64,000 nucleotides of DNA from Nocardia bhagyanarayanae (GTDB lineage Bacteria > Actinomycetota > Actinomycetes > Mycobacteriales > Mycobacteriaceae): contig NZ_VFPG01000002.1 of the NCBI RefSeq assembly GCF_006716565.1, positions 124,001-188,000 on the forward strand, written 5' to 3'. The notes under the pieces were generated by a model, which had not been told where the DNA came from, searched no databases, and worked only from the letters and a program-made list of their open reading frames with translations. The first letter of the stretch is position 1; each line of letters begins with the position of its first letter. The translations under genes were made by a program, and so were the position numbers. This document shows positions 5,502-47,549 of this stretch, piece by piece.

Positions 5502-5761
5502 GCGAGAACTCTATGCCCGCCCCCCACACCCCCGACAACGCTTTCCCGCAGCCACCCGCCGCCGACGGCGAATCGCAGGGTCGGCCCAAGGTAGTGATAC
5601 GAGTTCTACTCGAATGTGAGATGTGTAACACACGTCCGCTCCCGGCCGAATAGTTCTGCGGCACCGCTGGATTGCGGTGCGATGCAATGGGGGTCGGTAT
5701 CCGAATCAGCTGAACCCGATTGTCTGTGACGCATGTTCCGAACCAGAAAGGGCTGTCAGCT

Positions 5762-7792
5762 GTGACGTCTCCGATGCTGTCCAAGGGCCAGAACGTTCCG
5801 CTGCCGGACGATGTCGATCGCATCGATGTCGTCATCGGATGGACCGAATCGGAGATCGAAGTCGATGCGTCAGCGCTATTGCTCGGAGCCGATCGACGGG
5901 TCGGGTCCGATGCCGACTTCATTTTCTACAACCAACCTGAATCGACCGACGGATCGGTCCGGTTCCTCGGTACCAGTGCGACCGAGGAGGGTGCACAAGC
6001 TCGGATCGCGATCGATCTGTCGGCTGTGCCGGACAGCGTCCACACGGTTGCACTCGCGGGCAGCGTCGGAGTCGGGACGTTCGGAGATCTCGGCAAACTC
6101 GCGCTCCGGGTCGTCGACGCTGCCGGATTGTCGCTGGCCGAGTATGTAACCGCGGACGCAACCATGGAGTCGGCGTTCGTATTCGGCGAGATCTACCGTC
6201 GCGGCGGGGCGTGGAAGGTCCGTGCTGTCGGGCAGGGGTGGGAGTCGGGGCTGGCGGGTCTTGCCAAGGACTTCGGCGTCGACGTCGATGACGCCGAACC
6301 CGAAACAGGCTGTACAGAACCGGATTCCGCACCAGCGAGTGAGCCGGATCCTGCCGCGCCCGTAGAACCAGTTGCCGCAGAGCCCGATGGCCAGCCGCAG
6401 CAGGCGCCCGCATCAGGTGCCCGAGCAAGCGGACAGGGTCGCGGTGTCAGAACGGCCAAACGGGCGTTGAAGAAGGCCAAGCCCCTCGAATTCAGGCTCG
6501 CCGAACTGGACACCTGGCAACCGGCGCGATTGTTCTCGGTAGTCGGCGTCGGAGCGGGGGAGGAGCAGGAGCGTCGCGCCACATCGGCACTGATCGGCAC
6601 GATGCAAGCTGTCCGGCCATTCGCACGTGCGGTGTGCGCCAGGATGGGCGCCCCGGTCGGCGCATTCGAGGGGTACGTCGAGGTGCAATACGAACGCGGT
6701 GAATCGAAGGTGATACCGGATGCCGTCCTGAAGGTTTCGCGAGGTAGCCGGGTGTGGACCGGATTGCTCGAGGTCAAGACGGGAAACGGCAAGCTCAAAC
6801 GTGATCAGCTCGAGAGCTATCTGGATGTGGCGCGTAAAAAGAAGTACGACGCGGTAGTCAGCTTGTCGAACGACGTTCCCGCGAGCCCGGGAGAGCTCCC
6901 GGTCGAAGTCGACCGCCGCAAGCTGGCCAAAGTGGCTTTGCGGCATCTGTCCTGGGCGGAAGTGGCGCACGAAGCCCGAATGTTGCTCTCGCACGGCGGC
7001 ATCGACAACGAATTGCAGGCCTGGATACTCGGTGAGTTCTTGCGCTACCTCGACCACCCCCGCTCCGGGGCAACCGAGTTCGTCGACATGGGTCGGCACT
7101 GGGTGGCGGTTCGGGATTCGGTGACGGCGGGTACTTTGCGTGCGGGTGATCAGAAGGCACTGACGGTCGCGGACACATGGGTGTCGTTGTCGAGGCACCT
7201 CGCCTTGCGATTGACTGCCGAACTCGGTGTCACGGTCAAGCACATACTGCCCCGGCGTCACCGCTCTGACCCGGCTGCCCGCAACGCCGCGGTCGCGGAG
7301 CGGCTCGCGGCGGATGGCACGTTCGAAGCCGTGCTGCGCATCCCCGATACCGCGGGAGATCTGGTCGTGATCGCCGACGTGCGCACGAACAAGGTTCGGT
7401 GCCGCACGGTTCTCGACGCGCCGAACGAGGGGTCGTCCGGTCGCCGCATGTCGTGGTTGCTCAGGCAACTCGAGGATGCCCCTGGCGATGTGCAGGTCGA
7501 GGCTGTGTTCTCGGAGCGCGGCAACGAGGCATGCGAGCACCTCGCGACGGTGCGCGCGAATCCGAAAGTGCTGACCGACGGTCGTTCGGGTGCGATCGTG
7601 TCGTTCTCGTTGGAGCAGACCTTCCCGATGGGCAACCGGAGAGCCGGTACCGCGGCTAGTTTCATCTCCAGCGTCACCTCGGCGACCGACGCGTTCTACG
7701 GGTCGGTGGTACAGCCGTTGCGCGGATGGGTGCCCGCCGCACCCAAACAGCCGGAGCAAGTGCAGTCCGAGGCCGCGGCATCCACAGAGTGA
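5762..7792 (+). CDS. TerD-domain protein fused to a PD-(D/E)XK-like nuclease domain
   Basis: 676 residues. Residues 1-180 are a TerD/TerZ fold: LSKGQNVPLP at the start, DVVIGW, then acidic stretches and SAFVFGEIYRRGGAWKVRAVGQGW. TerD domains bind calcium and work in Ter stress systems. An Ala/Pro/Glu linker (about 185-240) follows. Residues 255-370 hold a nuclease-like core: D320 in IPDAVL, LEVKTG (E337, K339) and QLESY (Q349, Y353), matching the D-ExK plus QxxxY pattern of RecB-like PD-(D/E)XK enzymes. Residues 370-676 are unassigned. GTG 5762 is preferred over TTG 5720: AAAGGG lies 9 nt upstream and TerD proteins begin with SKGxN. No other ter gene is adjacent. Nuclease activity is inferred from motifs only. 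Confidence 0.8.
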   Translation: MTSPMLSKGQNVPLPDDVDRIDVVIGWTESEIEVDASALLLGADRRVGSDADFIFYNQPESTDGSVRFLGTSATEEGAQARIAIDLSAVPDSVHTVALAGSVGVGTFGDLGKLALRVVDAAGLSLAEYVTADATMESAFVFGEIYRRGGAWKVRAVGQGWESGLAGLAKDFGVDVDDAEPETGCTEPDSAPASEPDPAAPVEPVAAEPDGQPQQAPASGARASGQGRGVRTAKRALKKAKPLEFRLAELDTWQPARLFSVVGVGAGEEQERRATSALIGTMQAVRPFARAVCARMGAPVGAFEGYVEVQYERGESKVIPDAVLKVSRGSRVWTGLLEVKTGNGKLKRDQLESYLDVARKKKYDAVVSLSNDVPASPGELPVEVDRRKLAKVALRHLSWAEVAHEARMLLSHGGIDNELQAWILGEFLRYLDHPRSGATEFVDMGRHWVAVRDSVTAGTLRAGDQKALTVADTWVSLSRHLALRLTAELGVTVKHILPRRHRSDPAARNAAVAERLAADGTFEAVLRIPDTAGDLVVIADVRTNKVRCRTVLDAPNEGSSGRRMSWLLRQLEDAPGDVQVEAVFSERGNEACEHLATVRANPKVLTDGRSGAIVSFSLEQTFPMGNRRAGTAASFISSVTSATDAFYGSVVQPLRGWVPAAPKQPEQVQSEAAASTE

Positions 7793-7838
7793 TGGGTCTG
7801 GCCTCGGAACCTCACCGCCGGGTGCGCCGACGCGCGGC

Positions 7839-7850
7839 TATCGTGGAGGC
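7839..7850 (+). promoter_or_regulatory. Probable leaderless promoter (-10 TATCGT)
   Basis: TATCGT at 7839-7844 lies six bases before the GTG at 7851, the spacing expected if transcription begins at the start codon. The purines just before the GTG are too close to act as a ribosome site. Confidence 0.5.
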
Positions 7851-8012
7851 GTGGGCATCATCGGCGAGCTGTTCGGCAACAAGCTGAACGACGAGGGCAG
7901 CGAGGACAGCGACGGACAGCTGCACGAGCCGCGCGTCGACGTGGATCTGGACGCGGGCGTAGTCCGGTTGTCCGCCCCGGCGCGGTCGAACGAGAACGAC
8001 ACCACCGGCTGA
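7851..8012 (+). CDS. 53-residue hypothetical protein, probably leaderless
   Basis: Small acidic protein starting MGIIGELFGNKL and ending in a disordered Asn/Thr tail. An N-terminal amphipathic helix is followed by a VDVDLDAGVVRLS strand-like stretch. No known family recognised. The GTG at 7851 is supported by a -10 element at leaderless spacing and by its position directly after the TerD-nuclease gene (58-bp gap). It ends 7 bp before the convergent transporter gene stops. Confidence 0.5.
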   Translation: MGIIGELFGNKLNDEGSEDSDGQLHEPRVDVDLDAGVVRLSAPARSNENDTTG

Positions 8013-8018
8013 CCGCGT

Positions 8019-8903
8019 TCAGCTGGTTTCGGCGAGGGCGGGGCGGGGTTGGCCGCGGGTGAGGAGCCAGCCGACGGCGGTGGCGAGCGGGAACATGAGG
8101 ACGCCGTAAACCGCTGCGGGCACGGCCATTTCGGTACTGTCGAGGACGCTGATGGCGATGGTGATCGCGATGGTGCTGTTGTGGATGCCCACTTCCATCG
8201 AGCAGGCGATGGCTTGGCGGTCGGGGACGCCGAGCCAGCGGGGGAGGAAGTAGCCCGCGGTCAGGCTGGCGAGGCAGAACAGCGTGGTGACCGCGCCGAC
8301 GTCGAGGGCGTAGTCGACCAGGTTGTCGCGCTCGGCGACCATGGTGCCGACGACGACCAGCGCCAGCGTCAGCGCCGAGCCGATGCGCACCGGCCGATCC
8401 ATCCGGTCGGCGAACCCGCTCCACAGCCGCCGCACCACCATCCCGATCGCCACCGGAACCAGCACGATCGCGAACACCTGGACCACCTTGCCGAATTGCA
8501 GGCCGACCGTGCCCGCCCCCTCGTCCGGATCGAAGTAGTCGATAGCGAAGTTGGTCACCAGCGGCACCGTGACCACCGCGATGATCGAATTGACCGCGGT
8601 GAGAGACACATTCAGCGCCACATCGCCGCGGAACAGATGGCTGAACAGGTTCGCGGTCGTCCCGCCCGGCGAGGACGCGAGCAGCATCATGCCGACCGCG
8701 AGGATCGGCGGCAGATCGAACAGCAGCACCAGTCCGAAGGCGACGATCGGCAACACCACCAGCTGGCAGGCGAGCGCGATCGCCACGGTCTTCGGGTTGC
8801 GGGCGATGCGGGTGAAGTCCGCGACCGTCAGCGACAATCCCAGGCCGAACATGATGACGGCCAAAGCTATTGGCAGACCGACGGATACGAGCGGAGAGTC
8901 CAT
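8019..8903 (-). CDS. Bile acid:sodium symporter family (BASS) transporter
   Basis: 294 residues with about nine or ten hydrophobic segments. Signature stretches are MLLASSPGGTTANLFSHLFRGD near residue 80 and EVGIHNSTIAITIA near residue 245, the two broken-helix crossover motifs of the BASS/ASBT fold, where sodium and substrate bind. Substrates in bacteria range from bile acids to pantoate and other organic acids; none can be chosen here. The ATG at 8903 has GAGGAAG 5 nt upstream; an earlier start at 8948 would add a non-hydrophobic tail. No operon partner. Confidence 0.9.
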   Translation of the reverse strand: MDSPLVSVGLPIALAVIMFGLGLSLTVADFTRIARNPKTVAIALACQLVVLPIVAFGLVLLFDLPPILAVGMMLLASSPGGTTANLFSHLFRGDVALNVSLTAVNSIIAVVTVPLVTNFAIDYFDPDEGAGTVGLQFGKVVQVFAIVLVPVAIGMVVRRLWSGFADRMDRPVRIGSALTLALVVVGTMVAERDNLVDYALDVGAVTTLFCLASLTAGYFLPRWLGVPDRQAIACSMEVGIHNSTIAITIAISVLDSTEMAVPAAVYGVLMFPLATAVGWLLTRGQPRPALAETS

Positions 8904-9033
8904 ATTCTTCCTCAGCATTCGCGGGCCGAAGCCCACATCTGAGACCAATTCGACTCAGAATGAATGGAGGGTAGCGGCATGTGATCTACGTCGCAACCAA
9001 TCCGGCCGCGTCGGCCTGCGCCACGCCGACGAA

Positions 9034-10520: not shown

Positions 10521-10988
10521 ATTCGGAGGTGATTCGCCCCGCGCCCCGCGGGTGATCCACCTCTCGCCCGGCTGGTGATCCACCGCGAAACCGTCGCGGA
10601 ATCCCGCCGAAGCAATCGCCAAGCGATCTTGGTACACCCCGCACAAGTTGTCTCGAACGCGTCCGAATGCCAGCGCGTCGCGCCGCGATGTGGTATCGGC
10701 AGGCCCCTCGGTGATGAACCGGCTGCGGCCAGGTGTCTGGGTCACGTGGCTCTGTGGCTAAGCTCTGGCAATCGCTCGGGTGTGCTCCTGCCTGGGCCGA
10801 TGTGGCTGACATCTCATCACGCCGCGACCTGTGGTCTGATAGGGGCCGGATTTGCCGAAATTGCCCCCTGTAAATCGATTCCTTCTCGCTTTGTTCGACA
10901 CTGGCCCGTTCGCAGGCGGGTCGTCCGACCGGGTTCGTGGGTCTCGACGAAATCTGCGGGCTGGACGCGAGAGGGATGTAGTACTCGG
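10521..10988 (+). other. Leader region upstream of the NRPS gene, no gene recognised
   Basis: 468 bp. The NRPS frame stays open through most of it, but the translation is Arg/Ser/Pro-rich without domain similarity, so I treat it as untranslated leader and promoter region. A direct repeat GGTGATCCACC occurs twice near 10550-10585. No confident promoter boxes and no MbtH-like gene. Confidence 0.5.
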
Positions 10989-13900
10989 ATGGATGGAGTT
11001 CGTCGTGCTGTTCGGGGTCGAATTCGTCGGAGGTCGAGTAACCCGCTTTTCGTCCAGCTGCTGACCGCCGCGGTCGAGTCCGCGGCCGACTCGATCGCCA
11101 TCAGCTATGACCCGACCGGCGAGCCCGGCGCCCGGCGCGAACTCACCTATACCGAACTGGACGGATCCTCGTCGCGACTGGCGCGCGAACTGATCGAGCG
11201 CGGCGTCGGCCCCGGCGACGTCGTCGCCATCGGCTTCACCCGGTCGATCGAATCCGTGCTCGCCGTCTGGGCCGTCGCCAAGACCGGAGCGGCCTACGTG
11301 CCGGTCGACCCGACGCTGCCCGCGGACCGCATTGCCTACCTCGTCGCCGACTCCGGAGCGATGCTCGGTCTCACCGACTCGAAGCACCGCCTGCGCCTCG
11401 GCGATGGCATCGACTGGCTCGAGCTCGACAACCCCTCGCACCGGGAGCGGATCGCGGCCCGGCCTGCACACCCGATCTCGTATGTCGACCGCGTCCGCCC
11501 GCTGACCGAACAGCATCCCGCCTACGTCATCTACACCTCCGGCTCGACCGGTCGGCCCAAGGGCGTCGCCGTGACCCACGCGGGTCTGGCGAGCTTGGTC
11601 ACCGCCGTGCGAGAGCGCTATCAAGTGGATGGCGGCGCCCGGGTACTGCATGTTTGTTCCCCGAATTTCGATGTCTCGGTGCTCGAACTGCTGCTCGCCT
11701 TCGGGTCCGGTGCGACGCTGGTGGTGTCGCCCCCGACGGTGTTCGGCGGCCCGGAGCTGGCCGACCTGCTCCGCCGGGAGCGCGTCACGCATCTGCTGAT
11801 CACACCGGCCGCACTGGAGTCGGTGGATCCGGCCGGGCTGGACCACCTGCGGACCGTCGTCGTCGCGGGTGACGCGTTCGGCCCCGCATTGGTCGAGCGG
11901 TGGTCGGACACGGGACGGTCCTTCTACAACGGTTACGGCCCCACCGAGGCCACCATCCTCGCGACCGGCAGCGCCGCGCTGGCGCCGGGCGAGCCGATCA
12001 CCATCGGCGCCGCACTGCCAGGCATCGGCGCGGTGGTGCTGGACGCGCGGCTGCGTCCGGTGCCCGCCGAAGTGACCGGCGAACTCTATCTGTCGGGCCC
12101 CGCGCTGGCCCAGGGTTACCTCGGGCGGCCCGGGCTGACGTCGGAACGCTTCGTGGCCAATCCTTTCGGCGCCACGCCGGGGTCGCGGATGTATCGCACC
12201 GGCGACTTGGTGCGCCGCACCGCGGACGGCGACCTCGAGTACTTGGGCCGCACCGATTTCCAGGTGAAGATCCGCGGTTTCCGGATCGAACTCGGCGAGA
12301 TCGACGCCGCGCTCACCGCGCACCCCGATATCGACTACGCCGCGACCCTCGGCAAGGTCGCGCCCTCCGGCGCGACCGTCCTCGTCTCCTATGTCCTTCC
12401 GCGCGAGGGTGTTTCGCTCGACTTCGGTGAACTGTCCCGCTTCGCCGCAACCTCGCTGCCCGGTCACATGGTGCCGTCCGCGTTCGTGGCGCTCGACGCG
12501 ATTCCGTTGACCGCCAACGGAAAACTAGACCGGCAGGCCTTGCCCGAGCCGGTGTTCGAGGCGGCCGTCTCGCGTGCGCCGGAGGGTCCGGTGGAATCCC
12601 GGATCGCCGAGTTGTTCGCGCAGGTGCTCGGTGTGCGGCGGGTCGGCGCGGAGGATTCGTTCTTCGCCGCGGGCGGGGACAGCATTCTCTCGATCCAGCT
12701 GGTGTCGCGGGCAAGGGCGGCGGGAATCTCGTTCACGCCCCAGGATGTGTTCGAGCACCGCACCGTCGCGGGGTTGGCGCGGGTCGCGGTGCTCGGCGGA
12801 GAGTCCGCCCTCGTGCTCGCGGAGCTACCGGGCGGCGGCGTCGGTGAGATGCCGCTGACGCCGGTGCTCGCCGCGTACTTGTCCGGCGGCGAGCCCTTCC
12901 GCCGATTCACCCAGCACATGGTGCTCGCGCTGCCCGAACACATCGATCGAGCGGCCCTGGTGGCCACACTCGGCGCGGTGCTGGATCACCACGACATGCT
13001 GCGCGCCCGGATCCGGTCCGTCGAAGGGCAGTGGCGACTGCACTCCCTGCCGCCCGGCTCGCTGGATGTGGACGCACTGCTGACCCGCGTCGACGTTCCC
13101 GCGGAGCTGGACATCGACGAGTTGCGGGAAACAGCCAGCACCGCATTGGATTCCGCGCTGGACACGCTGGACCCGACGGCGGGACGGATGATCGCCTTCG
13201 CCTGGCTGGCCCGCCCGGACGGCCGGGACGCACTGATCGTCGCCGCGCATCACTACGTCATCGATGGCGTGTCCTGGCGAATCCTGATCCCGGACTTGGT
13301 GACCGCATGGGCACAGCACGCCGCCGGGCAGCGGATCTCTTTGCCCGGTGTCGGCACGTCGTTCCGGCGGTGGGCACACGGTCTGGTCGATGCTGCCGCG
13401 GACCGCGTCGGCGAATTGCCTTACTGGCGGCGAACTCTCGCCATCGCCGATCCGAATCTGGGTGCCCGTGCGTTCGATCCGGCCGTCGACACGGCGGACA
13501 CCGTGCGGCGCTTCACCGTCGCGGCGCCCGCCGAGGTCACCCACGCGGTGCTGACCGAGCTGCCGAAGTTGTACCGAGCCGGAACCAACGACGGACTGCT
13601 CGCGGCGTTGGCGCTGGCGACTCGTGCGTGGCGGGCGAACAGGGGTGTCGACGCCGCGGCCACCAGGGTGCGGCTCGAGGGGCACGGCCGCGAGGAAACC
13701 ACTGTCGCCGGAGCCGATCTGACCCGCACCGTCGGATGGTTCACCACCATGTATCCGGTGGCGCTCGATCTGTCCGGCATCGACGCCGAGGCGGCTTGGC
13801 GCGGTGGCGACGCGACCGCGGCGCTGCTCAAGGCGGTGAAGGAGCAACTGCTCGCCGTGCCGGACAAGGGCATCGGCTTCGGCATGCTCCGGCACCTGAA

Positions 13901-16900
13901 CCCGGACACCGCTGGGGAACTGGGCGGCGCGCTCGGCCAGATCGGCTTCAACTATCTCGGCCGGATCTCCGCGGGCGATACGCCGGAGGGCCTGACCGAC
14001 CGGAGCTGGCTGCCGACCGCCGAATGGGGCGACCCGGAGGCCGCGCACGATCCGGACATGCCCGCGGCCGCCGTCGTGGACATCAACGCGCTCGTCACCG
14101 ACACCGACTCCGGCGCGCGGCTGTCCGCGTCCTTCGCCTACGCGTCCGAGATCCTCGACGAGGCCGCCGTTCGTGAGCTGACCGAATACTGGGTCGCCGC
14201 ACTGACCGTGCTCGCCCGGCACGCGCACGACCCGTCCGCGGGCGGGCTGACTCCGGCCGACGTCCCGCTGGTGCGGGTCACCCAGGCGGAACTCGACACT
14301 TGGCGGCGGGAGCGGCCGGGACTGGTCGACGTGCTGCCGCTCTCGCCCCTTCAGCTCGGATTGCTCTTCCTGACCCAGCTTTCGCCCGGCGCGGATCCCT
14401 ACCTGTTGCAGCTGGCGGTGGAACTGTCCGGCGACATCGATCTCGACCGACTCCGCAGGGCGGCGCAGGCGATGCTGGATCGGCACGCGATCCTGCGCTC
14501 GGCGTTCGGTTCCTCGGAAGAAGGCGCACCGGTTCAGTTCGTGAGCGAGGGACTCGCCGTGCCGTGGCGGGTCCTCGACACACCCGACGCTGACGCGGCG
14601 ACGCTGTTCGCGGCCGAACAGCGCCTCGGATTCGACCCGGCGACGCCGCCGCTGCTGCGATTCACGGTGTACCGCACGGATTCCGGGCGCACGCACTTGG
14701 TGCTGACCGCCCACCACATCCTGTTGGACGGCTGGTCGATGCCGTTGCTGATGAAGGACCTGCTGATCTTCTATGCGACAGACGGTGATTCGACGCCGCT
14801 GCCGCGGATTCGGCCGTACCGTGACTATCTCGCCTGGCTGGCGCGGTACGACCGGGACGCCACGCTGCGCACGTGGCGCGACGCGCTGGCCGGTACGACA
14901 CCGACCATGCTCGCCGCGTCCCTCGCGCCGCCGGTGCGTCCCGCCGACGGCTACGGCGACTGCGCCGCTGACCTGTCGCAGGACGAGACGGCGGCACTGA
15001 CGGCGTTCGCCGCGGCGGCGGAGGTCACCGTGAACACGGTGGTGCAGGCGGCGTGGGGTCTGGTGCTCGCCGCCTGCGTCGGGCGTACGGACGTGGTCTT
15101 CGGCGCGGTGGTGTCCGGGCGGCCGCCGCAGCTCGACGGCGTCGACGCGATGGTGGGCCTTTTCGCGAACACCATCCCGGTCCGGATCCGGTTCGACTCC
15201 GACATCTCGGTGCGGCAGTTGCTGAAACAAGTTCAGTCCGAACAGGCTTCGCTGCTCGAAGGGCATCACGTCGGACTCGCCGACATCCAGCGCGCGGCGG
15301 CGGCGGGGGAGTTGTTCGACTCGATCCTGGCTTACGAGTCGTATCCCGTCGACGCCGACGGCTTGCGAGCGGCCTACGGGACGATCGACGGGCTGGAAAT
15401 CGTCGACCTGCAAGGGGTCAACTTCACCCACTACCCCGTGGCGATCCAGGTCGAACTGGGCGCCGAGCTGCGGCTACAGGTGCAGCATCGCAACGACGCC
15501 GTCACTCCTGCCACCGCGCGGGCGCTGGCGGACCGATTGCGTTCGCTGCTCGGCGAATTCGTCGCGGCGCCCGAGCGCACATTGGCGGCGACGATGGAGT
15601 CGCTGGATGAGCGCGACGATCTGATCGCGCAGACCCGGTATTGGCGCACCGCGCTCGCCGGACTGCCGGACGAGCTGAATCTGCCCACGGATCGCCCGAG
15701 GCTCGCCGGCCCAGCGGTCGCGGAGGGCCGGATCGACTTCGAGATCGATGGCGAGCTGCACGACCGACTGCGGGAGGTCGCGCGTGCGGCAGAGGCGACG
15801 GTATTCACGGTCGTCCACGCGGCTTTCGCGGTATTGCTGGCCCGACTATCGGGCACCGACGACATCGCGATCGGTACACCCGGAGTCGACGGATCGGCCA
15901 ACACGCTGGTCCTGCGCACCCGAGTCCAGGGCGGCATGTCCTTCGCGGATCTGCTATCGGAGACGAAGGACGTCGACCTACAGGCTTTCCGACACGCGGA
16001 CCTACCGTTCGACGCCTTGGTGGCACTGCTCGACCCGGACCGGTCGGATGCGCGTCATCCGCTGGTGCAAACGATGTTCTCGGCGGGGGACCGCACTATC
16101 GAGTACCAAAACGACACGGCGAGACTGCCTCTCGACCACGGGGACGCCACCCCCGCAGCGAAACCGGACCTCTCCCTGCATATTCGCGAGCGCGACGCGG
16201 GCATCGCCGCGAACTTCACCTTCTCCCGCGCACTCTTCGATCCGCACACCATCCGCGTCTTCGCCGAGCGCTTCCTCCGGCTACTGACCGCCGCGACGCA
16301 CCGACCGGAGACTTCCGTCGGTGACCTCCCGCTGCTCGACGCCGACGAACACGCGCTGCTGACCCGCGTCGCCGCCGACGACGCCATCGGCGCCGCCCTG
16401 CTGCCCGATCTGCTGACCCGCGGCGTCGCCCTGGGCCGCGACCGCATCGCGGTGCGCTACCGTGGCCGGTCGATCGGCTACGGCGAATTCGACGAGCGCA
16501 CTTCGCGATTGGCGCGCACGCTGATCCAGCGCGGCGTCGGCCCGGAGCGTCTCGTCGCCGTCGCCCTCCCGCGCTCCGCCGACATGGTGCTCGCGGCCCT
16601 CGCGATCGCCAAGGCCGGCGGCGCGCACGTGCCGATCGATCCCGGCTATCCCGTGGAGCGGGTGCGGCACATGGTGTCCGACTCGGGCGCGATGCTCGGC
16701 ATCACCGTCGCGGAATACGCCGATCGGCTCCCCGCAGGCGTGGACTGGCTTGTTCTCGACGACCCTGCGACAGAAGAGATCTGCCGCGCGCAGTCCGCGG
16801 AGCGGGTGACGGACGCGGATCGCCTTGCGCCACTGCGTATGCGGCATCCCGCGTACGTCATCTACACGTCGGGTTCGACGGGCGTGCCGAAGGGCGTCAC

Positions 16901-19900
16901 CGTGACCCACAGCGGCCTCGAGGGTCTGCGCGAGGAGTCCGTGCGCCGCTACGGGCTGGAGCCACACCACCGGTTCCTGCACCTCTGCTCGCCGTGCTTC
17001 GACCCCTCGGTGCTCGAGTGGCTGTGCACGTTCTCGGTCGGAGCGACGCTGGTCATCGTGCCGCACACCGTGGTCGGCGGCGCGGAGCTCGGCGATCTGC
17101 TGCGCACCGAGGCGGTCACGCACGCGATCTTCACCCCGGCGGTCCTGGGTACCGTCGATCCGGAGGGCCTGGACGCGCTGGAGCTGTTGTGCGTCGGCGG
17201 TGATGTGACGACCTCGGAACTGCTGGCGAAGTGGCAGCCGGGCCGCCGCTACCTCAACGCCTATGGTCCGACCGAGGCGACCATCGCCGCGTCGTACGCG
17301 GAACTGACCGCGGGACAGCGCATCACGATCGGTTCGCCGCTGCACGGCATGTCCGCGCTGGTGCTGGACGCGCGGCTGAATCCGGTGCCGCCGGGTGTCG
17401 CGGGTGAGCTGTATCTGGCGGGCGGCGGCTTGGCCCGCGGCTATCGGAACCGCGCGGGGCTCACCGCCGAACGTTTCGTCGCCGATCCGTGGGGCGCTCC
17501 CGGCGCGCGGATGTACCGCACCGGTGACGTCGTGCGCTGGCACGTCGCCTCGCCCTCGGCACCGTGGGAGCTCGAGTACGTGGGCCGCGCCGACACCCAG
17601 GTCAAGGTGCGCGGGTTGCGCATCGAACTCGGCGAGATCGACGCGGTGCTCGGCGGGCACGACGACGTGGAGTTCGCGGTCACCGTCGGACGGAAGATGG
17701 CGTCGGGATCGACGGCGCTCGTGTCGTATGTGCTCGCGGCGCCGGGCCGCACGGTGGACACGGCGCGCCTCACCGAGCACGCGGCAAAGATTCTCCCGGC
17801 GCACATGGTGCCGTCGGCGATCGTCGTCCTGGATGAGATCCCGTTGACCACCAACGGCAAGCTGGATCGAAAGGCACTGCCGGAACCCGTTTTCGAGACG
17901 ACGCCGACCCACGCGCCGTCGAGTCCCGTCGAAGAGCGGCTCGCCGAACTGTTCGCCCAGGTACTCGGTGTGGCGACGGTCGGGGTGCACGATTCCTTCT
18001 TCGCGATCGGCGGCGACAGCATCATGTCGATCCAGCTGGTGTCGCGGGCCAAGGCGGCCGGAATCGTCTTCACCGCGCGCGACGTCTTCGAACACCGGAC
18101 CGTCGCGGGCTTGGCGCGCATCGCGACCGTCGGCGGCGACGCGTCGCCAATGGTGTTGGCGGAGTTGCCCGGTGGCGGCGTCGGCGAAATTCCGCTGACG
18201 CCGGTGCTCGCCGAATTCCTCGCCAACGGCTCCTGCGACCGCTTCGCCCAGACCGCGGTGCTCGCGCTGCCCGAGGGGATCGATCGCGCCGGTCTCGTCG
18301 CGACCGTCGCGGCGGTGCTCGACCGGCACGATGTGCTGCGTTCCCGGGTGTGGCAGGACGGCGGCCGGTGGCGGTTCGAGGCGCTGCCGAGCGGCGCGGT
18401 CGATGCCGACGCACTGGTGACCGAGGTCGACGTCCCCGTCGTCGACGACGCCGAGCTGACCCGGATCGGCAGCGCCGCAATGGCTTCGGCGATGGCCGCC
18501 CTCGATCCGGCGGCCGCGAGAATGATCGCCTTCACCTGGTTGCGCAGGTCCGGCGCGCGCGACGTGCTCGCGGTCGCGGCGCACCACTACGTCATCGACG
18601 GGGTGTCCTGGCGCATCCTGATTCCCGATCTAGCGGTGGCCTGGGCGCAGCGCGCGGCGGGACAGGAGGTCGCGCTGCCCGCGGTCGGCACCTCGTTCCG
18701 GCGCTGGGCGCACGGACTTTCCGACGCCGCCACCCGCGCGGAGCGGGCCGCCGAGGTCGGCCACTGGCAGCGGGTGCTCGCCACGCCGGATCCGTTGCTC
18801 GGCGCGCGTGCCGTCGACTGCGCGCTCGACACCGAGCCGACGATGCGGTCGATCACGGTCCGGGTGCCGGTCGAGGTCACCGAGGCGCTGTTGACCACGC
18901 TGCCCGCGCTGTATCGCGGCGGCGTCAACGACGGCCTGCTCGCGGCGCTCGCGCTGGCGGTGCGCGCGTGGCGTGCGCGGCGCGGTGTCGACTCCCCGAC
19001 GACCCGCATCCGCCTCGAGGGCCACGGACGTGAGGAAACCGTAGTTCCCGGAGCGGATCTCACGCGCACCCTCGGCTGGTTCACCAGCGTCCACCCCGTG
19101 GCGATCGACCTGTCCGGCATCGACACCGCGCATGGGCTCACCGACGGCGCGGCGCTCGCCGACGTGCTGAAATCGGTCAAAGAGCAACTGCTCGCGGTGC
19201 CGGACAAGGGCATCGGCTTCGGCATGCTGCGCCATCTCAATCCGGACACCGCCGGACTGCTCACCGGCGATATGGGCCAGATCGGCTTCAACTATCTCGG
19301 CCGCGCTTCGGCGGGCGGCCAGATCGACCAGACCGACGGAAGTTGGTTGCCGACAGCCGATCTCGGAGAGATCGAGATCGAGCACGATCCGGCCCTGCCC
19401 GTCGGCGCGGTGATCGACATCAACGCGATCGTGGCCGACACCGCGACCGGCCCGCGCATGGAAGCGAGCTTCCGCTACGCGAGCGGCATCCTCGACGAGG
19501 CGGCGGTGCGGGAACTGGCCGACGAGTGGACGGCCGCGCTGACCGCCGTCGCCGACCACGTACGGCACCCGGCCGCGGGCGGACTGACGCCCTCGGATGT
19601 GCCGCTGGTGCGAGTCACCCAAGCCGATCTGGACCGCTGGCGGCGGGACTACCCGGGGCTGTCGGACGTCTTGCCGCTCTCGCCGCTCCAGTCCTCGCTG
19701 CTGGTGCTCATCGAACTGCTCGCCGGATCGGTCGACGCCTACATCATCCAGTTGGCTGCCGAGCTGACCGGCGACCTGGACACGAACCGCCTGCGCGGGG
19801 CCGCGCAGACCATTCTGGACCGGCACGCGAACCTCCGCTCCGCCTTCGTCACCGCGGCCGACGGGACCCCGGTCCAGCTGGTGGTCGACGACCTCGACAT

Positions 19901-22900
19901 GCCGTGGCGCATCGTCGACCGCGTCGCCGACGCCGACCTGCCCGGGTTGCTGGCCGCCGAGCAGCGCACCGAATTCGATCCCGCGGTGGCGCCGCTGCTG
20001 CGATTCACGCTGTACCGCACCGACTCCGGCCGCAACCACCTCGTGCTGACCGGCCATCACATCCTGCTCGACGGCTGGTCGATGCCACTGCTGATGAAGG
20101 AGCTGCTCGTCCTGTACGCGACCGGTGGCGACGCGTCGCCGCTGCCACCGGTCCGGCCCTATCGCGACTACCTACGGTGGCTGTCGCAGCAGGACCGTGG
20201 CGTCGCGGAGCGGGCCTGGTCGGAGGTGCTGGCGGGCGTCACCCCGACGATGCTCGCGCCCGAGCTCACCTGGCCCGCGCCGACGGATGGCGGATTCGGC
20301 CTCCGCGAGTTCGAGCTGTCGACCGAGGAGACCACCGCGCTGACCGCTTTCGCGGCAGGGGCCGAGGTCACCGCCAACACGGTGCTGCAGGCCGCGTGGG
20401 GTCTGGTCCTCGCGGCGGCCACCGGACGCGACGACGTCGTCTTCGGCGCGACCATCTCCGGGCGACCCCCGCAACTCGACGGCATCGGCGAGATGATCGG
20501 CCTGTTCGTGGACGCGATCCCGGTGCGCATCCGGTTCGATCGCGGCACGACGGTCCGGGCGCTGGTCGACGGGGTGCAGACCGAGCAGGTCTCGCTGTTG
20601 GATCACCACCACTTCGGGCTCGGCGCCATTCAGCGCGTCGCGGGGCAGGGTGAGCTGTTCGACACGATGCTGGTCTTCGAGTCGTACCCGGTCGACGTCG
20701 AGGGCCTTCGGCAGGCGAGCGGCGCGCTCGACGGATTGCGGGTCGACGACCTCGGCGGGGGCGATTACACGCACTATCCGATCACCGTGCTGGTCTTCCT
20801 CGGCAGCCGAACGCTGGTGCAGGTGAAGTACCGGCGCGACCTGGTCGCCGACGCGACGGCGGGCGCCGTCGCCGATCGACTGCAGCGCGCGCTCGGCGAG
20901 CTCGTCGCGACGCCGGACCGGACCGCCGCCGAGACCGTGCTGCTGCTCGACGTCGAATCGGACGACTCGATCACCCGATCCCGCTATTGGCGTACGGCTT
21001 TGGCGGGACTGCCCGAGCTGGAGCTGCCGGGAGAGCGGCCCACCGTGCCATCGAACGACCGTGGGCGAGTGCGGTTCTCGGTTTCGGAGGAGGTGCAGAG
21101 GGGACTGCGCCATCTCGCGCACACGGCCGGGGTGAGCTGGTCATCGGTGGTGCGCACGGCGTTGTCGGTTGTGCTCGCACGTCTTTCGGGCACCGACGAC
21201 ATCGCGATCGGGTCGCCCATGCCCGGTGGTCTCCGCGCCGAGGTGGTGTTGCGTACCCGGGTGGATCGGTGCGCGCGGTTCGCCGATGTCCTGCCGGACG
21301 CGCACCGTGTCGAGCTGGAAGGGTTCGCGCACGCCGGTATTCCGCTCGACGAGCTGGTCGAGCTGCTGGGACGGTCGGCTCGGCAACCGCTGTTCCGTGT
21401 CGCGTTGTCCTTCGAAGGACAACCGGAAGCGGTGGGAGACATCGCGATCTCGTTCACCGAGGATGGACGCGGCGAAATGTCCTTCGCCCGTGGTCGTTTC
21501 GGTGACGATGACGCGGAACTATTCGCCGAGAGGTTCGTTCGCGTCCTGACGACCGCCGCGGACCGGCCCGACACGGCCGTCGGTGACCTGCCGCTGCTGG
21601 CCGCGGACGAGTACGAGCGGCTGATCCGGATGGGCGGCGGTGACGCCGTCGAGATCGGAACGCTGGCCGAACTGCTGGTGCGAGGTGTGCGTTTCGGCCG
21701 GGACCGTGTCGCCGTGCGCGACGCGGGACGCGCCTACACCTACGGCGAACTCGACGACCAGTCCTCGCGGCTGGCACGCGTCCTGATCGAGCGCGGTGTC
21801 GCGCCCGAAACGGTGGTGGCGCTGGCGATGCGGCGCTCCTACGAGCTGATCGTAGCGGTGTGGGCGGTCGCCAAGGCCGGTGGCGCGTACCTGCCGGTCG
21901 ATCCGACCTATCCGGTCGACCGGGTGCGGTACATGATCGCCGATTCCGGTGCCGCGCTGGGCATTACCGTCGCGGAGCAGGCGGCCGGTCTGTCCGGCGC
22001 GGTGGATTGGCTCGTCCTCGACGATCCCGCCGTGGGGGCGCGATGTGCCGCTCAGACTTCCGCGCCCGTGTCCGACGCGGAAAGGCTTGCGCCCCTGCGG
22101 CTGACGCATCCCGCGTACGTGATCTACACGTCGGGATCGACGGGTCTGCCCAAGGGCGTCGCGGTGACCCACGCCGGTCTCGGCGGACTGGTCGGCCACA
22201 CGGTCGACATGCTGCGGCTCGCGCCGGAACACCGGATGCTGCATGTGTGCTCGCCCAGCTTCGACCAATCGGTGGAGGAGCTGTCCAGCGCCTTCTACAG
22301 CGGGGCGACGTTGGTGATCGCGCCGCCGGACACCGTCGGCGGCACGGAATTGCACGAACTGCTGCGCGCCGAGCGGGTGACGCACACGATCATCACGCCC
22401 GCGTTGCTGGGCACCGTCGATCCGTCCGGCTTGGACGACCTGGCGGTGGTGTCCGCCGGTGGCGAGGCCACCACACCCGACCTGCTGGCCAAGTGGCAGC
22501 CGGGACGCCGGTTCATCAACGGCTACGGTCCGACCGAGGCCACGATCGGCGCCACCTATACGACCCTCCTCGCGGGACAACGGGTGACGATCGGCCGACC
22601 GGTGCCCGGAGTGTGGGCGGCGGTGCTCGACCAGCGGCTGCATCCGGTACCGGTGGGCGTCACCGGTGAGTTGTACCTCGCGGGCCCGGCGCTCGCGCGC
22701 GGCTATCACGGCCGCGCCGGCGCCACGGCGGACCGTTTCGTCGCGAACCCCTGGATGCCCGGCGAGCGGATGTATCGGACCGGTGATCTGGTCCGGTGGG
22801 TGCCGGACGCCGAATCGAACGGCTGGGAGCTGGAGTGCTTGGGCCGCACGGACTTCCAGGTGAAGATCCGCGGCTTCCGCATCGAGCTCGGCGAGATCGA

Positions 22901-25900
22901 CGCGGTGCTCGCCGGGCACCCCGAGGTCGGCTACGCGGTGACCGTCGGACGCGAGAACTCCAACGGGGTAGTCGTTTTGGTGTCGTACGTGACCGGCCGC
23001 GTCGATGCCGACCAGCTGACGCGATGGGCCGCACGGGCACTGCCGTCGCACATGGTGCCCGCGGCGATCGTCGTGCTCGACGAACTCCCGCTCACCGCGG
23101 GCGGCAAGCTCGACCGAAACGCCCTTCCGGAACCGGAATTCGCGGCGCGCACCTACCGGGAGCCGTCCACGGTCTCGGAGCGGATCGTCGCCGAGGTCTT
23201 CGCCGAGGTGCTCGGGGTCGAGCGGATCGGCGCCGACGACCACTTCTTCGAGCTCGGCGGTAACTCGCTGCTGGCCACCCGGGTGACCGCGCGCCTCGGC
23301 GCGGCGGTGAACGCCCGGGTTCCGGTGCGTCTGCTGTTCGCCGCGCCCACGGTCGCGGGTTGCGCGCGCGACCTCGCGAAGCTCACCGGTGGCGGCCGTC
23401 CCGCCTTGGTGGCCGGGCCGAGACCGGAACGCGTTCCGCTCTCACCCGCGCAGCAGCGCATGTGGTTCCTCAACCGGTTCGACACCGGATCGACCGCCTA
23501 CAACATCCCGGTCGCGATCCGTCTGACCGGCGAACTCGACATCGACGCGATGCGGCGGGCGTTCGCCGATCTCGTCGCGCGGCACGAGATCCTGCGCACG
23601 GTGTATCCGCAGCGCGAGGACGGTCCGGTGCAGGTCGTGCTGCCTCCCGATCACCCGGATGTGCCGGAGCTGCGGGTACGGGACGTGGTCGATGTCGAAT
23701 CCGCTGTGGAAGAGGTTCTTTCGACGGTCTTCGACGTCACCGCGGAGGTGCCGGTTCGCGCCGCTCTGTTCTGTGCCGAACGCGAATTCGTGCTCGCCAT
23801 GGTCGTCCACCACATCTCCGCCGACGGCTTTTCCGGCAGCCCGCTGACCCGTGACCTGGCGGCGGCGTACGTGGCCCGCGCGGCGGGGCGAGCTCCGGCG
23901 TGGACGCCGCTGGCCGTGCAGTACGCGGACTACGCGCTGTGGCAGCGAGCGCTGCTCGGTAGCGAGGATCAGCCGGGGTCGATGGCGGCCGAGCAGATCG
24001 CCTACTGGCGGGAGGCGCTCGCCGATCTCCCGGATCAGCTGGAACTGCCGAGGGACCGGCCGCGGCCCGCGGTGCAGTCGTTCGCCGGCGGGCGGGTACC
24101 GCTGCGCGTCGAGGCGGCCACCCACGCGGCGCTCGCGGAGCTGGCCCGTGCGAACGGCGCGACACTGTTCATGGTCGTGCACACCGCGCTGGCTGTGCTG
24201 CTCGCCAGGCTCTCGGGCACCGACGACATCGCGATCGGCACGCCCGTGGCGGGACGCGGCGAGGAGAGCCTGGACGATCTGATCGGCATGTTCGTCAACA
24301 CCCTGGTGTTCCGCACGAGGGTGGATCCGGACGCGGACTTCACGGAATTGCTCGCGCGGCAGCGCGACACCGATCTCCAGGCTTTCGCCCACGCCGACGT
24401 CCCGTTCGAGCGCCTGGTCGAAGTGCTGAATCCGGCGCGGTCGACCGCGCGGCATCCGCTGTTCCAGGTGGGTCTGTCGTTCCAGAATCTGGCCCCGGCC
24501 CGCATGGAACTGCCGGGCTTGACGGTCGCCGCGTGGGAGACGGATCGGCAGCTCTCGCAGTTCGATCTGCACGTCATCGTGGCCGACAGCTACGACGCGG
24601 CGGGCGCGCCCGCCGGTATCGGCGGCGTCTTCACCTACGCCGCCGACCTGTTCGACGAGTCGACGGTGCGCGGTTTCGCGGACCGGTTCGTCCGGGTGCT
24701 GGACGCGGTGGCCGCCGACGCGGCGGTGCCGGTCGGTGCCATCGATCTGCTCGCGCCCGAGGAGAGCACGCGGATTCTCGCGGCCTGGAACGACACCGCG
24801 CACCCGGTGGATACCAGCGCCACGCTGGTGTCCCTGCTCGACGCGACGGTCGCCGCAGTGCCGGAGTCCGTGGCGCTTGTCGCCGCGGACGGCGAGCCGA
24901 CGAGCTATGCGGAGTTGGATGCGCGAGTCAATCGCCTTGCGCGCTACCTGATTTCGCTGGGAGCCGGTCCGGAGTCGCGGGTGGCGTTGGCCCTTCGGCG
25001 GTCGGTGGATCTGGTTGTCGCGATGTACGCGGTGAGCAAGGCGGGCGGTGCGTACGTGCCGGTGGATCCGGATCAGCCCGCGCAGCGGACCGAGTACATC
25101 CTCGAGACGGCGGCGCCGGTCTGCGTGCTGACCGACGCCGACGCGGATTTCACGACGTCCGCCGCGCCGGTGGTGCGCCTGGATCGGCTGGACCTTTCGG
25201 CGGTGGACCCTTCGGCGCTCACCGACCTGGATCGCCTCGCGCCGTTGCGCGCCGAGCACCCGGCGTACGTGATCTTCACGTCGGGTTCCACGGGCCGCCC
25301 GAAGGGCGTCGCGGTTTCGCACGGCGCGATCGTGAATCAGTTGCTCTGGAAGACAGCGGAATTCGGTCTCTGCGCCGATGACGTCGTGCTGTTGAACACA
25401 GCGGCGACGTTCGACGTGTCGGTGTGGGAGTTCTGGTCGCCCGCGGTGCGCGGCGGCCGGTTGGTGATCGCCGCACCCGGCGGTCATCGGGACCCGGCGT
25501 ATCTGAACGAGCTCATGGCGCGGGAGGGCGTGACGACGCTGCACACGGTGCCGTCCATATTGGACGCCTTGTTGACGGGTCGCCTGGCGGAATCCCTGCG
25601 CCGGGTGCTTGCCATCGGCGAGGCGCTGCCCGCCGCGCTGGCTCGCCGGTTCGCCGCGGCCGCGCCGGATACGGAGCTGTTCAATGTGTACGGCCCGACA
25701 GAGGCCGCCGTGTCGATCACCAGTCATCCGGTGCGAGCGGTCGACGCGGTGGCGGTGCCGATCGGCGTCCCGGCCTGGAACAGTCAGGTGTACGTCCTGG
25801 ATTCGCGCCTGCGGCCGGTGCCGGTCGGTGTCCCCGGTGAGCTGTATCTGGCGGGCGCGCAGCTGGCGCGAGGCTACTTCGGCCGGCTGGATCTGACCGC

Positions 25901-27344
25901 GGAGCGATTCGTGGCGAACCCGTTCGACGCGGGCACCCGGATGTACCGCACGGGCGACCTCGTGGCATGGAACGCGGCGGGGGAGTTGGAGTACCTGGGC
26001 CGCACCGACTTCCAGGTGAAGATCCGCGGATTCCGCATCGAGCTCGGCGAGATCGACGCCGTACTCGCCGAGCATCCGGAGGTGGACTTCGCGGTCACGG
26101 TCGGCAGAGAAAACGCCGCCGGTGCGACGCTTTTGGTGTCGTACGTGATGGGCGCGCCCGGCCTGGACACCGGTCTCTTGATCGAGTGGACCGCGCGGAC
26201 GTTGCCGTCGCACATGGTGCCCGCGGCGATCGTGGTCCTCGACGAGCTCCCGCTGACCTCGTCCGGCAAACTCGACCGCGCGGCGCTGCCCGAACCGGAA
26301 TTCGCCGCCGGCGCCTATCGCGCTCCGTCGACGGCGCTGGAGACCACGGTCTGCGGGGTCTTCGCGGAAGTCTTGTGCGTCGATCGAATCGGCCTGGACG
26401 ACAACTTCTTCGAGCTGGGCGGCAACTCGCTGATCGCGACCAAGTTGTCGGCGCGGCTGAGCGAGGCGGTGGCCGAGGCGATTCCGGTCGTGTGGGTGTT
26501 CACCGCGCCCACCCCGGCGGGCATCGTCGCCCAGCTCCGTGCGGGTGGCTCCGAAAGCGCGGGCACGGACTCGGCTTTCGACGTGTTGCTTCCGTTGCGC
26601 ACGTCCGGCGCCGCCGAGCCGCTGTTCTGCGTCCACCCGATCGGTGGCATCGCGTGGTCGTTCGCCGGGCTCACCGCGCACCTGGACACGGAGCGGCCCG
26701 TCTACGGCCTCCAGTCGCCCGCCTTGAGTTCGGCCGCACCGCTTCCGGATTCCATCGAGGACTGGGCGCGGCTCTACGTCAAGCACGTCCGCTCCGTGCA
26801 ACCGGAGGGGCCGTACCACCTGCTCGGCTGGTCGCTCGGCGGTGTGCTCGCGCACGCCATGGCGGTCCAGCTCCAGGACGAGGGTGAAGAGGTGGCGCTG
26901 CTGGGCATGATGGACAGCCATCTGCGTTCGGCCGCCGATTCGCACGCTGACGTTTCGGTACCGGAGTTGCTCGGTGGACTGCTCGGCGATCGAGTCGCGG
27001 AATTCGGCTTGGACGAGACCGTGGAGTTGCCGGAGCTGGCCAAAAGGTTGAGCACGCTCCCCGAACCGTTCGCGTCCTTCGGAGCCGAGCGGATCGGACG
27101 AGTTGTGGACGCCGCGGTGGCTTCGGCCGACCTCGACGCGGTCTATCGCCCCCGCGTGTTCGATGGCCGGTTGGTGTATTTCACTGCTGCCCAGAGCGAT
27201 CCGACCGGTTCCGCCGGTGCGGCGACCTGGACGGCCGCGGTCACCGGCCCCGTGCACAACCACCAGGTCGACGCCACGCACTGGCGGATGACCACCGACT
27301 CGGCTCTCCGGCAGATCGCGGAGGCGCTGCGGACCTGGTTGTGA
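10989..27344 (+). CDS. Four-module non-ribosomal peptide synthetase with terminal thioesterase
   Basis: 5451 residues. Approximate order by residue: A1 20-520, T1 about 561 (GGDSI), E1 620-1086 ([10 protein letters not shown] 754), C2 1115-1530 (HHILLDGW 1242), orphan C-lobe 1551-1784, A2 1804-2298, T2 2341 (GGDSI), E2 2400-2860 (2532), C3 2895-3320 (3023), orphan C-lobe 3331-3535, A3 3557-4040, T3 4089 (GGNSL), C4 4151-4590 (HHISADGFS 4275), A4 4610-5100, T4 5143, TE 5205-5451 (GWSLGG 5280, later Asp and ATHW His). There is no starter C domain, so A1 loads the first residue; two E domains predict D residues at positions 1 and 2 of a tetrapeptide. Binding-pocket residues read by eye: A1 DVLLVAGILK, A2 DPLICGAIAK, A3 DQEISGGIGK, A4 DVWHLIVVSK. 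A4 begins like serine pockets (DVWHL); the others I cannot assign. ATG 10989 is chosen because A-domain similarity starts about 20 residues later; GAGGG is 13 nt upstream. Confidence 0.92.
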
Positions 27345-30132: not shown

Positions 30133-30146
30133 CATGTGTTCACATG
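30133..30146. promoter_or_regulatory. Probable ArsR operator CATGTG-TT-CACATG
   Basis: Perfect 6-bp inverted repeat around TT in the gap between the divergent ArsR and cbiM genes; the block TTCACATG also occurs as a direct repeat (30129 and 30139). A -10-like TATCGT at 30162-30167 faces cbiM, so a bound repressor would lie just upstream of that promoter. Confidence 0.55.
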
Positions 30147-30196
30147 CGCAGGTATCGAGCGTATCGTCTTGGGAGGTGAGCGATTACACAGTGGCC

Positions 30197-31267
30197 ATGC
30201 ACATGAGTGACGGCATCGTCGACGCTCCCACTTCGTTGGTCTTCGCTCTGATCGCCGTCGCGGGAACAGGTTTCGCCGCCTGGCGGGCGCGCGCCGAGCT
30301 CGACGAACGTGCCGCTCCCATGGCGGGTCTGGTGGCCGCGTTCATCTTCGCGGTGCAGATGGTCAACTTTCCGATCCTGCCGGGCGTGAGCGGGCATCTA
30401 CTCGGCGGAGCGCTCGCCGCGATCCTGGTCGGACCGTACGTCGGGGCGCTGTGCGTGGCGATCGTGCTCGTCGTCCAGGCGCTGCTTTTCGCCGATGGCG
30501 GACTGAGCGCGTTGGGCGCCAACATCACCAATATGGCGCTGATCGGCGTCGCGGTGGGATACGCGGTCGCACGCCTGATCCTGCCGATGCTGGTCGACCG
30601 AGCCGATTCCGGGATCGCTGTCACCGCCTTCACATCCGCACTTGTCGCAACCGTCGCCGCCGCAATGGGTTTCGTCGCCGAGTACGCGATCGGCGGTGCG
30701 GCGGGATCGACCGTCGGGGCCGTCGCGGGATACATGTCGATCACGCACGCGCTGATCGGTGTCGGAGAGGGAATCATCACCGCGATCACCGTTGTCGCCG
30801 TGGTGAAGGCGCGACCCGATCTCGTCTACCTGTTCCGCGTCATCGGTCGACGCCGAACCGCCACGACGCCGCTCCGCGCCAGACTCTCGACGACCGGATT
30901 CCTGTGGACGTTCGCGGCGGTCGCGGTGATCACCGCGGGCGCGCTGTCGTACGTGGCCAGTTCGCAGCCGGACGGCCTCGATGCCACAACCCAACGCGGC
31001 TGCACGGTGGTCGAAGTCGGCGGCGCCGAAGAACTGCACGGCGAATGCATCGCTCGGAGCGCCGAAGAACATCGGCTCGCGAACTCTCCGCTCGCGGACT
31101 ACACGATCGGTGGCAACGAGGAATTGACCGGTATCGCAGGCGTTCTCGGTGTCGCCGCCGCGTTCGCCGCGCTGTTCGCTCTGCTTCGCACGATCCGGGC
31201 GGGACGGAAAGACCGGACCGCTGCGGCGGCAGGAGATGCCGCGATCGCCGGGTCGGAGACGGCCTGA
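30197..31267 (+). CDS. cbiM: CbiM(N)-type substrate-binding membrane component of an ECF nickel/cobalt importer
   Basis: 356 residues. ATG 30197 gives the N-terminal Met-His that binds metal in CbiM/NikM; starts at 30176 or 30191 are possible and the ribosome site does not decide. Residues 1-215 are CbiM: about seven hydrophobic segments with QMVNFPILPGVSGHLLGGALAA carrying the second metal His. After a basic linker, residues 240-340 resemble CbiN: one membrane helix, a PDGLD element, HRLANSPLADYTIGG and a last membrane helix. So CbiM and CbiN are fused. Followed by cbiQ after 1 bp. Likely controlled by the divergent ArsR protein. Nickel or cobalt cannot be distinguished. Confidence 0.9.
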   Translation: MHMSDGIVDAPTSLVFALIAVAGTGFAAWRARAELDERAAPMAGLVAAFIFAVQMVNFPILPGVSGHLLGGALAAILVGPYVGALCVAIVLVVQALLFADGGLSALGANITNMALIGVAVGYAVARLILPMLVDRADSGIAVTAFTSALVATVAAAMGFVAEYAIGGAAGSTVGAVAGYMSITHALIGVGEGIITAITVVAVVKARPDLVYLFRVIGRRRTATTPLRARLSTTGFLWTFAAVAVITAGALSYVASSQPDGLDATTQRGCTVVEVGGAEELHGECIARSAEEHRLANSPLADYTIGGNEELTGIAGVLGVAAAFAALFALLRTIRAGRKDRTAAAAGDAAIAGSETA

Positions 31268-31268
31268 G

Positions 31269-47435: not shown

Positions 47436-47549
47436 ATTTTGTGCCATCCTCGCCCGTATCAGGCCTAGAGGTCGAGGACGACCCGCGCACCTATAGGAAG
47501 CGGCGTGTCGACAACGGGCATGTCGCCAGGAGAAGGAAGTCGAAGCGTC

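Follow-up and report, generated by a model that had tools for sequence, protein, structure and literature searches.

Two modules of a nonribosomal peptide synthetase (NRPS) of Nocardia bhagyanarayanae carry an additional C-terminal lobe of a condensation (C) domain, placed between a complete C domain and the A domain behind it. The gene lies in the window, i.e., the whole analysed stretch of 64,000 nucleotides (contig NZ_VFPG01000002.1, positions 124,001 to 188,000). The extra lobe, hereafter the half-C or half, is of LCL type, and the complete C domain ahead of it is of DCL type. The explanation in which we place somewhat better than even confidence is that each half is a retained adapter of the C-A interface, which remained when an LCL-A-T module received a grafted epimerization (E) domain and DCL domain at the hinge of its C lobes; we infer both the adapter function of the half and the order of these events. 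Comparison of the sequences establishes the LCL origin of the halves, their origin on more than one occasion, their inheritance together with the A domain in most lineages, the action of purifying selection, and frequent loss of the loops directed to the N-lobe.

The synthetase has the domain order A-T-E-C-halfC-A-T-E-C-halfC-A-T-C-A-T-TE (Table 1), and the true start of its frame probably lies inside of position 10575. An earlier, sequence-only reading had proposed an orphan C-lobe between the C and A domains of two modules, each following an E-C pair, which is borne out by the translation, the domain order and the coverage of the Pfam profile. C2 and C3, described there as complete with the motif HHILLDGW, do contain this motif and match the DCL model at full length. 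The second stretch starts at 15639 in half 1 and at 20985 in half 2 and continues to the C-A linker, with a shared 13-residue stretch at 15837 and 21174 and VLRTRV at 15909 and 21246 as internal landmarks. The Pfam Condensation profile (PF00668; 456 positions, cut-off of 30.6 bits) matches half 1 at profile positions 186-450 with 140.2 bits and half 2 at 188-358 with 71.1 bits. With this partial coverage, neither half has the two lobes of an active Condensation domain, and the motif HHxxxDG is present in neither, in agreement with the claimed absence of an N-lobe. The domain search that had been suggested as a check detected the C-lobe alone and no complete second C domain. The floor-loop segment, which was also said to be missing, corresponds to empty alignment columns in both halves, and in half 1 it is missing relative to a solved structure as well. 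Both halves are incomplete C domains directly before an A domain, and both are internal, after E-DCL, rather than in the N-terminal starter-module position of the truncated C domains known as C*. The residue numbers of the sequence-only reading are about 149 lower than those used here, probably as a result of a different start codon; the nucleotide coordinates agree.

LCL and DCL models were built from the C domains of the own genome (43 LCL and 9 DCL). Halves 1 and 2 match the LCL model from positions 183 and 193 onward, respectively, and across the set the first LCL-model position of a half lies between 177 and 208, close to the YWR motif at 195 and in accord with a boundary between the two C lobes. 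Because the preceding domains match the DCL model completely and the halves correspond to an LCL C-lobe alone, each E domain is followed by a complete C domain, to which the half is an addition. Half 1 is identical to the C-lobe of C4 in 112 of 242 columns and half 2 in 92 of 203, and the corresponding values for the C-lobe of the adjacent upstream complete C domain are 51 of 218 and 48 of 193. The previously noted match to C4 holds for the LCL type, but C4 is not the closest relative, as an LCL lobe of another Nocardia NRPS (L071) is closer, with 138 of 241 columns identical to half 1 and 100 of 203 to half 2.

The phylogeny against C4-type lobes, also suggested earlier, groups the halves on the LCL side. 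In a C-lobe tree computed without the floor loop, a branch with a support of 0.994 separates all 78 DCL lobes from the rest, and every one of the 66 halves falls on the LCL side, in seven separate groups. Rows with fewer than 150 filled columns, or identical to others, were left out of this tree, namely 4 of the 70 distinct halves, 7 of the 85 DCL lobes and the one starter C. The overlapping loci L006 and L010 were excluded from the lobe alignment, the tree and the analyses of A domains and E-DCL-A positions. A 47-row mixture-model tree and the approximately unbiased (AU) tests were based on 17 halves, 23 LCL lobes and 7 DCL lobes, selected by hand (five of the DCL lobes at random). In that tree, the DCL lobes require one change, at a support of 100, and the halves six changes, at least five of which are forced by the starred branches. 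A derivation of the halves from the neighbouring DCL domain, with halves and DCL lobes in one clade, was rejected (p-AU 2e-90), with which the tree agrees, and a single clade of all halves was also rejected (p-AU 2.7e-15). The models, the trees and the AU tests all identify the halves as LCL-type C-lobes by descent, and the trees and tests show that, as judged from the aligned lobes, the halves had more than one origin.

A clade of the two half types of the window was not rejected (p-AU 0.588), and its likelihood was slightly higher. Since, in addition, A2 and A3 are mutually the nearest A domains within the window gene, one graft followed by module duplication suits the window lineage, and the grafted module was probably duplicated there. 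The earlier suggestion of a recombination scar duplicated together with the module is retained to this extent: a recombination origin fits the LCL nature of the halves, and a duplication fits the clade of the two window types, which was not rejected.

The loci L012 and L064 show the graft step in a young state. L012 is a third case in the own genome, where an LCL C-lobe that retains the floor loop lies between a starter C and the first A domain. Its half is identical at 190 of 256 positions to the LCL lobe of the next module in the same gene, and the half of L064 is identical at 186 of 253 to an LCL lobe of the same gene. The two halves are sisters to the LCL lobe of the other same-gene module, with support of 0.998 and 1.0, and in both cases the nearest A domain is that of this same module, the pairing being poorly supported for L064 (0.104) and supported at 1.0 for the other. 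The graft history of the halves is well supported, and the route was either the insertion of an E-DCL block at the hinge or a tandem DCL-LCL arrangement in which the second N-lobe was lost.

In the proposed mechanism, the half would be the acceptor-side C-lobe of the former LCL domain of the A domain that follows it. An E-DCL block, or a starter C, would have joined an LCL-A-T module as a graft at the interlobe hinge of its C domain, so that condensation would pass to the complete new DCL and the old C-lobe would remain attached to its A domain; the grafted module of the window would then probably have undergone duplication. The half would fill the C-lobe side of the C-A interface, and such an adapter could keep the A domain folded, positioned and selective despite the foreign catalytic C domain in front. 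By analogy, it is most likely that the retained lobe supports its own A domain while the grafted DCL condenses, because the A domain of McyB is reported to be more selective with a co-expressed C domain and the C-terminal subdomain alone to act likewise (review PMC11546977), and because the authors of the ThdA study suggest that an N-terminal C* before A1 may influence A selectivity (PMC7253712). We advance more tentatively, and with the balance leaning against it, a general plug-in scheme with several independent uses in Nocardia, by which the stereochemistry or the initiation of an NRPS would be altered. An E-DCL cassette or a starter C would be placed before an intact acceptor-lobe/A/T unit, and the orphan lobe would become a dedicated adapter that separates the gating by the A domain from condensation; it would go on to lose its floor loop and latch, retaining the fold of its core and the side that faces the A domain.

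The AlphaFold model of the DCL1-halfC1-A2 core (model 1) has a mean pLDDT of 89.6 and a pTM of 0.82, and within half 1 only residues 594-606 are under a pLDDT of 50. The half-C and A domain of model 1, taken as one unit, fit the C-lobe and A domain of LgrA (9meh, 3.2 Å over 627 residues; 6mfy, 3.0 Å over 619 residues) and of EntF (5ja2, 3.2 Å over 627 residues). The rows spanning the whole chain gave 13.9 Å or more, so that the DCL domain of the model appears not to occupy the position of a normal C domain. The canonical C-lobe/A interface position is predicted for half 1 alone. Model 2, of the second site, has a pLDDT of 87.1 and a pTM of 0.71, and its rows correspond to the A domain alone (about 2 to 5 Å), the C domain alone (about 3 Å) or whole chains (about 15 to 27 Å).

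The relation between each half and the A domain behind it was evaluated from score-based ranks, which are read by lineage as most rows are orthologues. When the 74 LCL modules are ranked by C-lobe, the one with the closest A domain falls in the top five for 56 of 70 halves, where chance would give 4.7; the DCL lobes that accompany the halves in their modules do so in 17 of 66 cases. The rank is 1 for both window halves, L071, L012 and L064, and 1 to 3 for the trimodular group. On the basis of these ranks, the half is generally the acceptor lobe proper to the A domain that follows and was inherited with it, with the exceptions of L061 and the eroded half-2 rows. Within the half modules, the correlations of the half with A (0.79) and of the DCL with A (0.74) are about equal because most rows are orthologues. 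Two tree-distance measures were not used: a Spearman coefficient (median −0.15 for halves versus 0.40 for intact LCL modules), which is dominated by deep-tree distances, and a rank test (64 of 65 halves in the top five), which favours short-branched LCL tips.

The halves are under purifying selection and evolve about twice as fast as their neighbours. The pooled omega is 0.392 for the halves (95% interval 0.356-0.428), 0.228 for the DCL C-lobes, 0.205 for the C-lobe of LCL4 and 0.213 for A2 and A3, as determined using the NG86 method without correction for codon bias from eight pairs that share no gene and whose tree paths possibly overlap. In the tetramodular family of 29 genes, from which L009 was excluded as it is not an orthologue, only L055 has lost half 2, which the other 28 retain; the family genes were fetched via half 1, and hence the corresponding 29 of 29 for half 1 is uninformative. 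The loss in L055 is clean (residues 2879-3331), the DCL being joined directly to the old C-A linker. In L051, L053 and L054, the match of the second DCL domain is split near model position 327-330, which suggests a small insertion inside that domain.

The erosion of the halves is concentrated in certain segments. Across the E-DCL groups, the filled fraction is 0.37-0.59 for the floor loop and 0.36-0.48 for the latch region. These two elements extend from the C-lobe to the N-lobe (PMC11546977), and the latch position is our own assignment, after the C6 motif at the low-confidence stretch of the model. The stretch LARLSGxDDIxIG is filled to 1.00 in the halves with an LCL-likeness of 0.85-0.90, versus 0.86 in intact domains, and the last helix is filled to 0.96-1.00. 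The floor loop is retained in the halves of L012, L061 and L064. In the starter family of 20 loci, the floor-loop FVN is intact in 8; other loci carry an altered version, and L192 and L205 have lost it and kept the lobe. The floor loop was therefore lost again in a second lineage that has no N-lobe.

The same C-halfC-A order had been proposed for a search in other Nocardia NRPSs, and a junction profile search found the E-C-halfC junction in at least 44 of 148 Nocardia genomes, including the own genome. The count of 44 is a lower bound, which requires a match of at least 135 bits that reaches profile position 126 or beyond. One genome (G108) has a match of 145.2 bits that ends at position 96, corresponding to a DCL that lost its half, and four more genomes (G035, G054, G055 and G115) were confirmed by architecture at lower junction scores. 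The named species with the junction, among the matches listed, include N. amikacinitolerans (the closest), N. xishanensis, N. anaemiae, N. otitidiscaviarum and N. takedensis. The first locus set contained 65 E-DCL-halfC junctions, these loci having been fetched because they matched the junction; in a larger locus set, a half is present at 71 of 83 E-DCL-A positions and absent at 12. The NRPSs with halves are tetramodular (about 5500 residues), trimodular (about 3000-3200 residues) or of other types with one half. Matches to the starter-type junction occur in 34 of the 148 genomes, in 32 over nearly the entire query, and the order starter C, C-lobe and A domain is found in 20 of 20 fetched starter-type loci.

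Outside the genus, the junction was not confirmed in limited searches, namely one at the strict value of 1e-60 and two at 1e-22 over 397 and 394 genomes (a few of them Nocardia), and this result holds among the matches listed in a further scan of one genome per species; the starter type was sought within Nocardia only. In four outside loci (L106, L107, L111 and L112), the DCL runs directly into the A domain with no half, and another outside match (G737) is an ordinary complete C domain. The remaining outside matches, including one that reaches position 123 of 148 of the profile (G210), were not inspected, and confinement to Nocardia is not shown.

Several observations weigh against a retained, functional adapter. 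The fit as one unit occurs in just 3 of 50 rows of model 1 among the matches listed, other LgrA and EntF chains being aligned over the entire model instead, and for model 2 no rigid unit of half-C and A domain was found among the matches listed. The half and A domain of L061 are mismatched (rank 61), and the half-2 orthologues rank from 1 to 27, with several eroded rows at 10 to 27. The omega of the halves is about double that of their neighbours, and in one pair half 1 (0.20) evolves no faster than these; the purifying selection may merely prevent misfolding. Segments other than the floor loop and latch are thinned too (C5 0.55 and C6 0.50 in half-1 rows; late strands 0.46-0.69). Since L055 lost half 2 cleanly, the half is not strictly needed, and 11 further E-DCL-A positions are without a half. 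In addition, two papers argue that natural recombination acts mainly on the A domain independently of the C domain, without general C-A co-evolution (PMC8097286, PMC7486941), a view that makes it less certain that an A domain requires a C-lobe of its own.

If the leftover lobe were a neutral recombination scar, roleless and decaying, the doubled omega and the frequent absence of the floor loop and latch would be accommodated, as would the clean disappearance of half 2 from L055. However, the pooled omega of 0.39 is well below 1, 28 of 29 genes retain half 2, both models fold with high confidence and the loss is uneven across the lobe, so that a pure scar, as the sequence-only reading had offered, fits less well and is unlikely. 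The mere structural spacer also offered there would leave the conserved core and the co-inheritance with the A domain unexplained. Selection might instead act only on folding, a misfolded insert being harmful to the synthetase, with no positive role for the half. This accounts for relaxed yet purifying selection and for the clean loss in L055, but it leaves the single loss among 29 genes unexplained, and we regard it as unlikely to much the same degree as the scar.

A platform that binds a tailoring enzyme, similar to the X or interface domain and in line with the protein-binding platform of the sequence-only reading, has a precedent in the X domain, a C-like domain with such a role in other NRPSs (PMC8949500). 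It found no support here and would be improbable, as no oxygenase or P450 family was matched in the 10 neighbouring open reading frames (ORFs) scanned, a part of all ORFs, the halves are without an N-lobe, and they recur in different NRPSs beside different A domains. Even less credence is given to an alternative acceptor lobe, in which the half would at times pair with the N-lobe of the DCL to form a second active arrangement; the half is homologous to the acceptor lobe and adjoins a complete C domain, but the floor loop and latch, which cross to the N-lobe, are the parts most often lost, and the DCL already possesses a complete lobe. Genome assembly is known to be at risk where modules are repeated, and an error joining different modules could in principle produce such a junction. 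It is ruled out for practical purposes by the same junction in the other Nocardia genomes, including single-contig assemblies. The adapter retained at the C-A interface is the explanation we prefer.

Table 1. Features of the NRPS gene in the window and of the third case in the own genome.
Feature	Position	Strand	Remarks
NRPS open reading frame	10575..27344	+	5589 aa; profile matches and translation
Epimerization domain E1	12837..14162	+	E motif at 13248
C2, complete DCL-type condensation domain	14328..15599	+	HHILLDGW at 14712; DCL model 1-441 of 442, 648 bits
Half-C 1, LCL-type C-lobe alone	15618..16322	+	without N-lobe; floor-loop deletion site between 15876 and 15908
Half-C 1 stretch with pLDDT < 50	16107..16145	+	model residues 594-606; putative place of the latch
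A2 domain, downstream of half-C 1	16413..17891	+	
Epimerization domain E2	18177..19499	+	E motif at 18582
C3, complete DCL-type condensation domain	19665..20942	+	HHILLDGW at 20055; DCL model 1-441 of 442, 656 bits
Half-C 2, LCL-type C-lobe alone, more eroded	20961..21584	+	floor loop deleted
A3 domain, downstream of half-C 2	21675..23138	+	
C4, complete LCL-type condensation domain	23430..24749	+	normal comparison within the protein; LCL model 1-458 of 458, 707 bits
L012	G000:C1:3924487-3926586	-	starter C and LCL C-lobe with floor loop

The modules of the window NRPS are presumably active, to judge solely from their intact E and C motifs. Contigs C1 and C2 of the own genome (G000) together contain 80 Pfam Condensation matches, with open frames of up to 12409 codons. 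Upstream of the NRPS, a TerD-domain frame and a gene of the sodium/bile acid symporter family are located at 5720-8948 of the window. At 30134-32740 (+), a cobalt uptake CbiM/PDGLE gene adjoins a frame with an ABC transporter ATPase domain, and a large frame at 47505-56906 (+) has fatty acid synthase domains (Fas1-like helical, AT, MaoC and ketosynthase).

In the open-licence literature searched, as represented by excerpts, no description was found of a C-lobe between a complete C domain and an A domain or of its recurrence across a genus. Relative to these sources, the internal, recurrent position of the C-lobe is new, and truncated C domains before an A domain and engineered XUC exchange units are known; truncated C domains also occur at other places in other synthetases. 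The C* domains before the A domain in ThdA of Thermoactinomyces (PMC7253712) and in the fmq cluster (PMC10212144) are likewise truncated and presumably inactive C domains in an NRPS. As far as their descriptions allow the comparison, the Nocardia half differs in being internal, behind a complete C domain with an intact motif, recurrent in the genus and a C-lobe alone. The Co remnant of Aspergillus HcpA is also internal and before an A domain, between A4 and A2, but it is found in one fungal protein, between two A domains, and its authors read it as module degeneration (PMC4041764). The X domain of glycopeptide synthetases is C-like and derived from a remnant C domain (PMC8949500), but it is described as a platform for P450 recruitment near the TE domain and not a single lobe between C and A domains.

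The choice of cut sites in NRPSs is a long-standing engineering question, to which the halves look like natural and long-surviving solutions. They range from recent grafts, which share 74% identity with an LCL lobe elsewhere in their own gene, to old and trimmed halves; they make the support of A-domain function by the C-lobe alone directly testable, and they bear on the dispute over the co-evolution of C and A domains. In the XUC exchange units of Bozhuyuk et al. (2019), as described in PMC11546977, PMC8097286 and PMC10212144, the cut is made between the C subdomains and the acceptor subdomain moves with its A domain. Those units are engineered, and the new donor lobe replaces the old one, whereas in Nocardia the A domain keeps its acceptor lobe and acquires a complete C domain of foreign origin in front.

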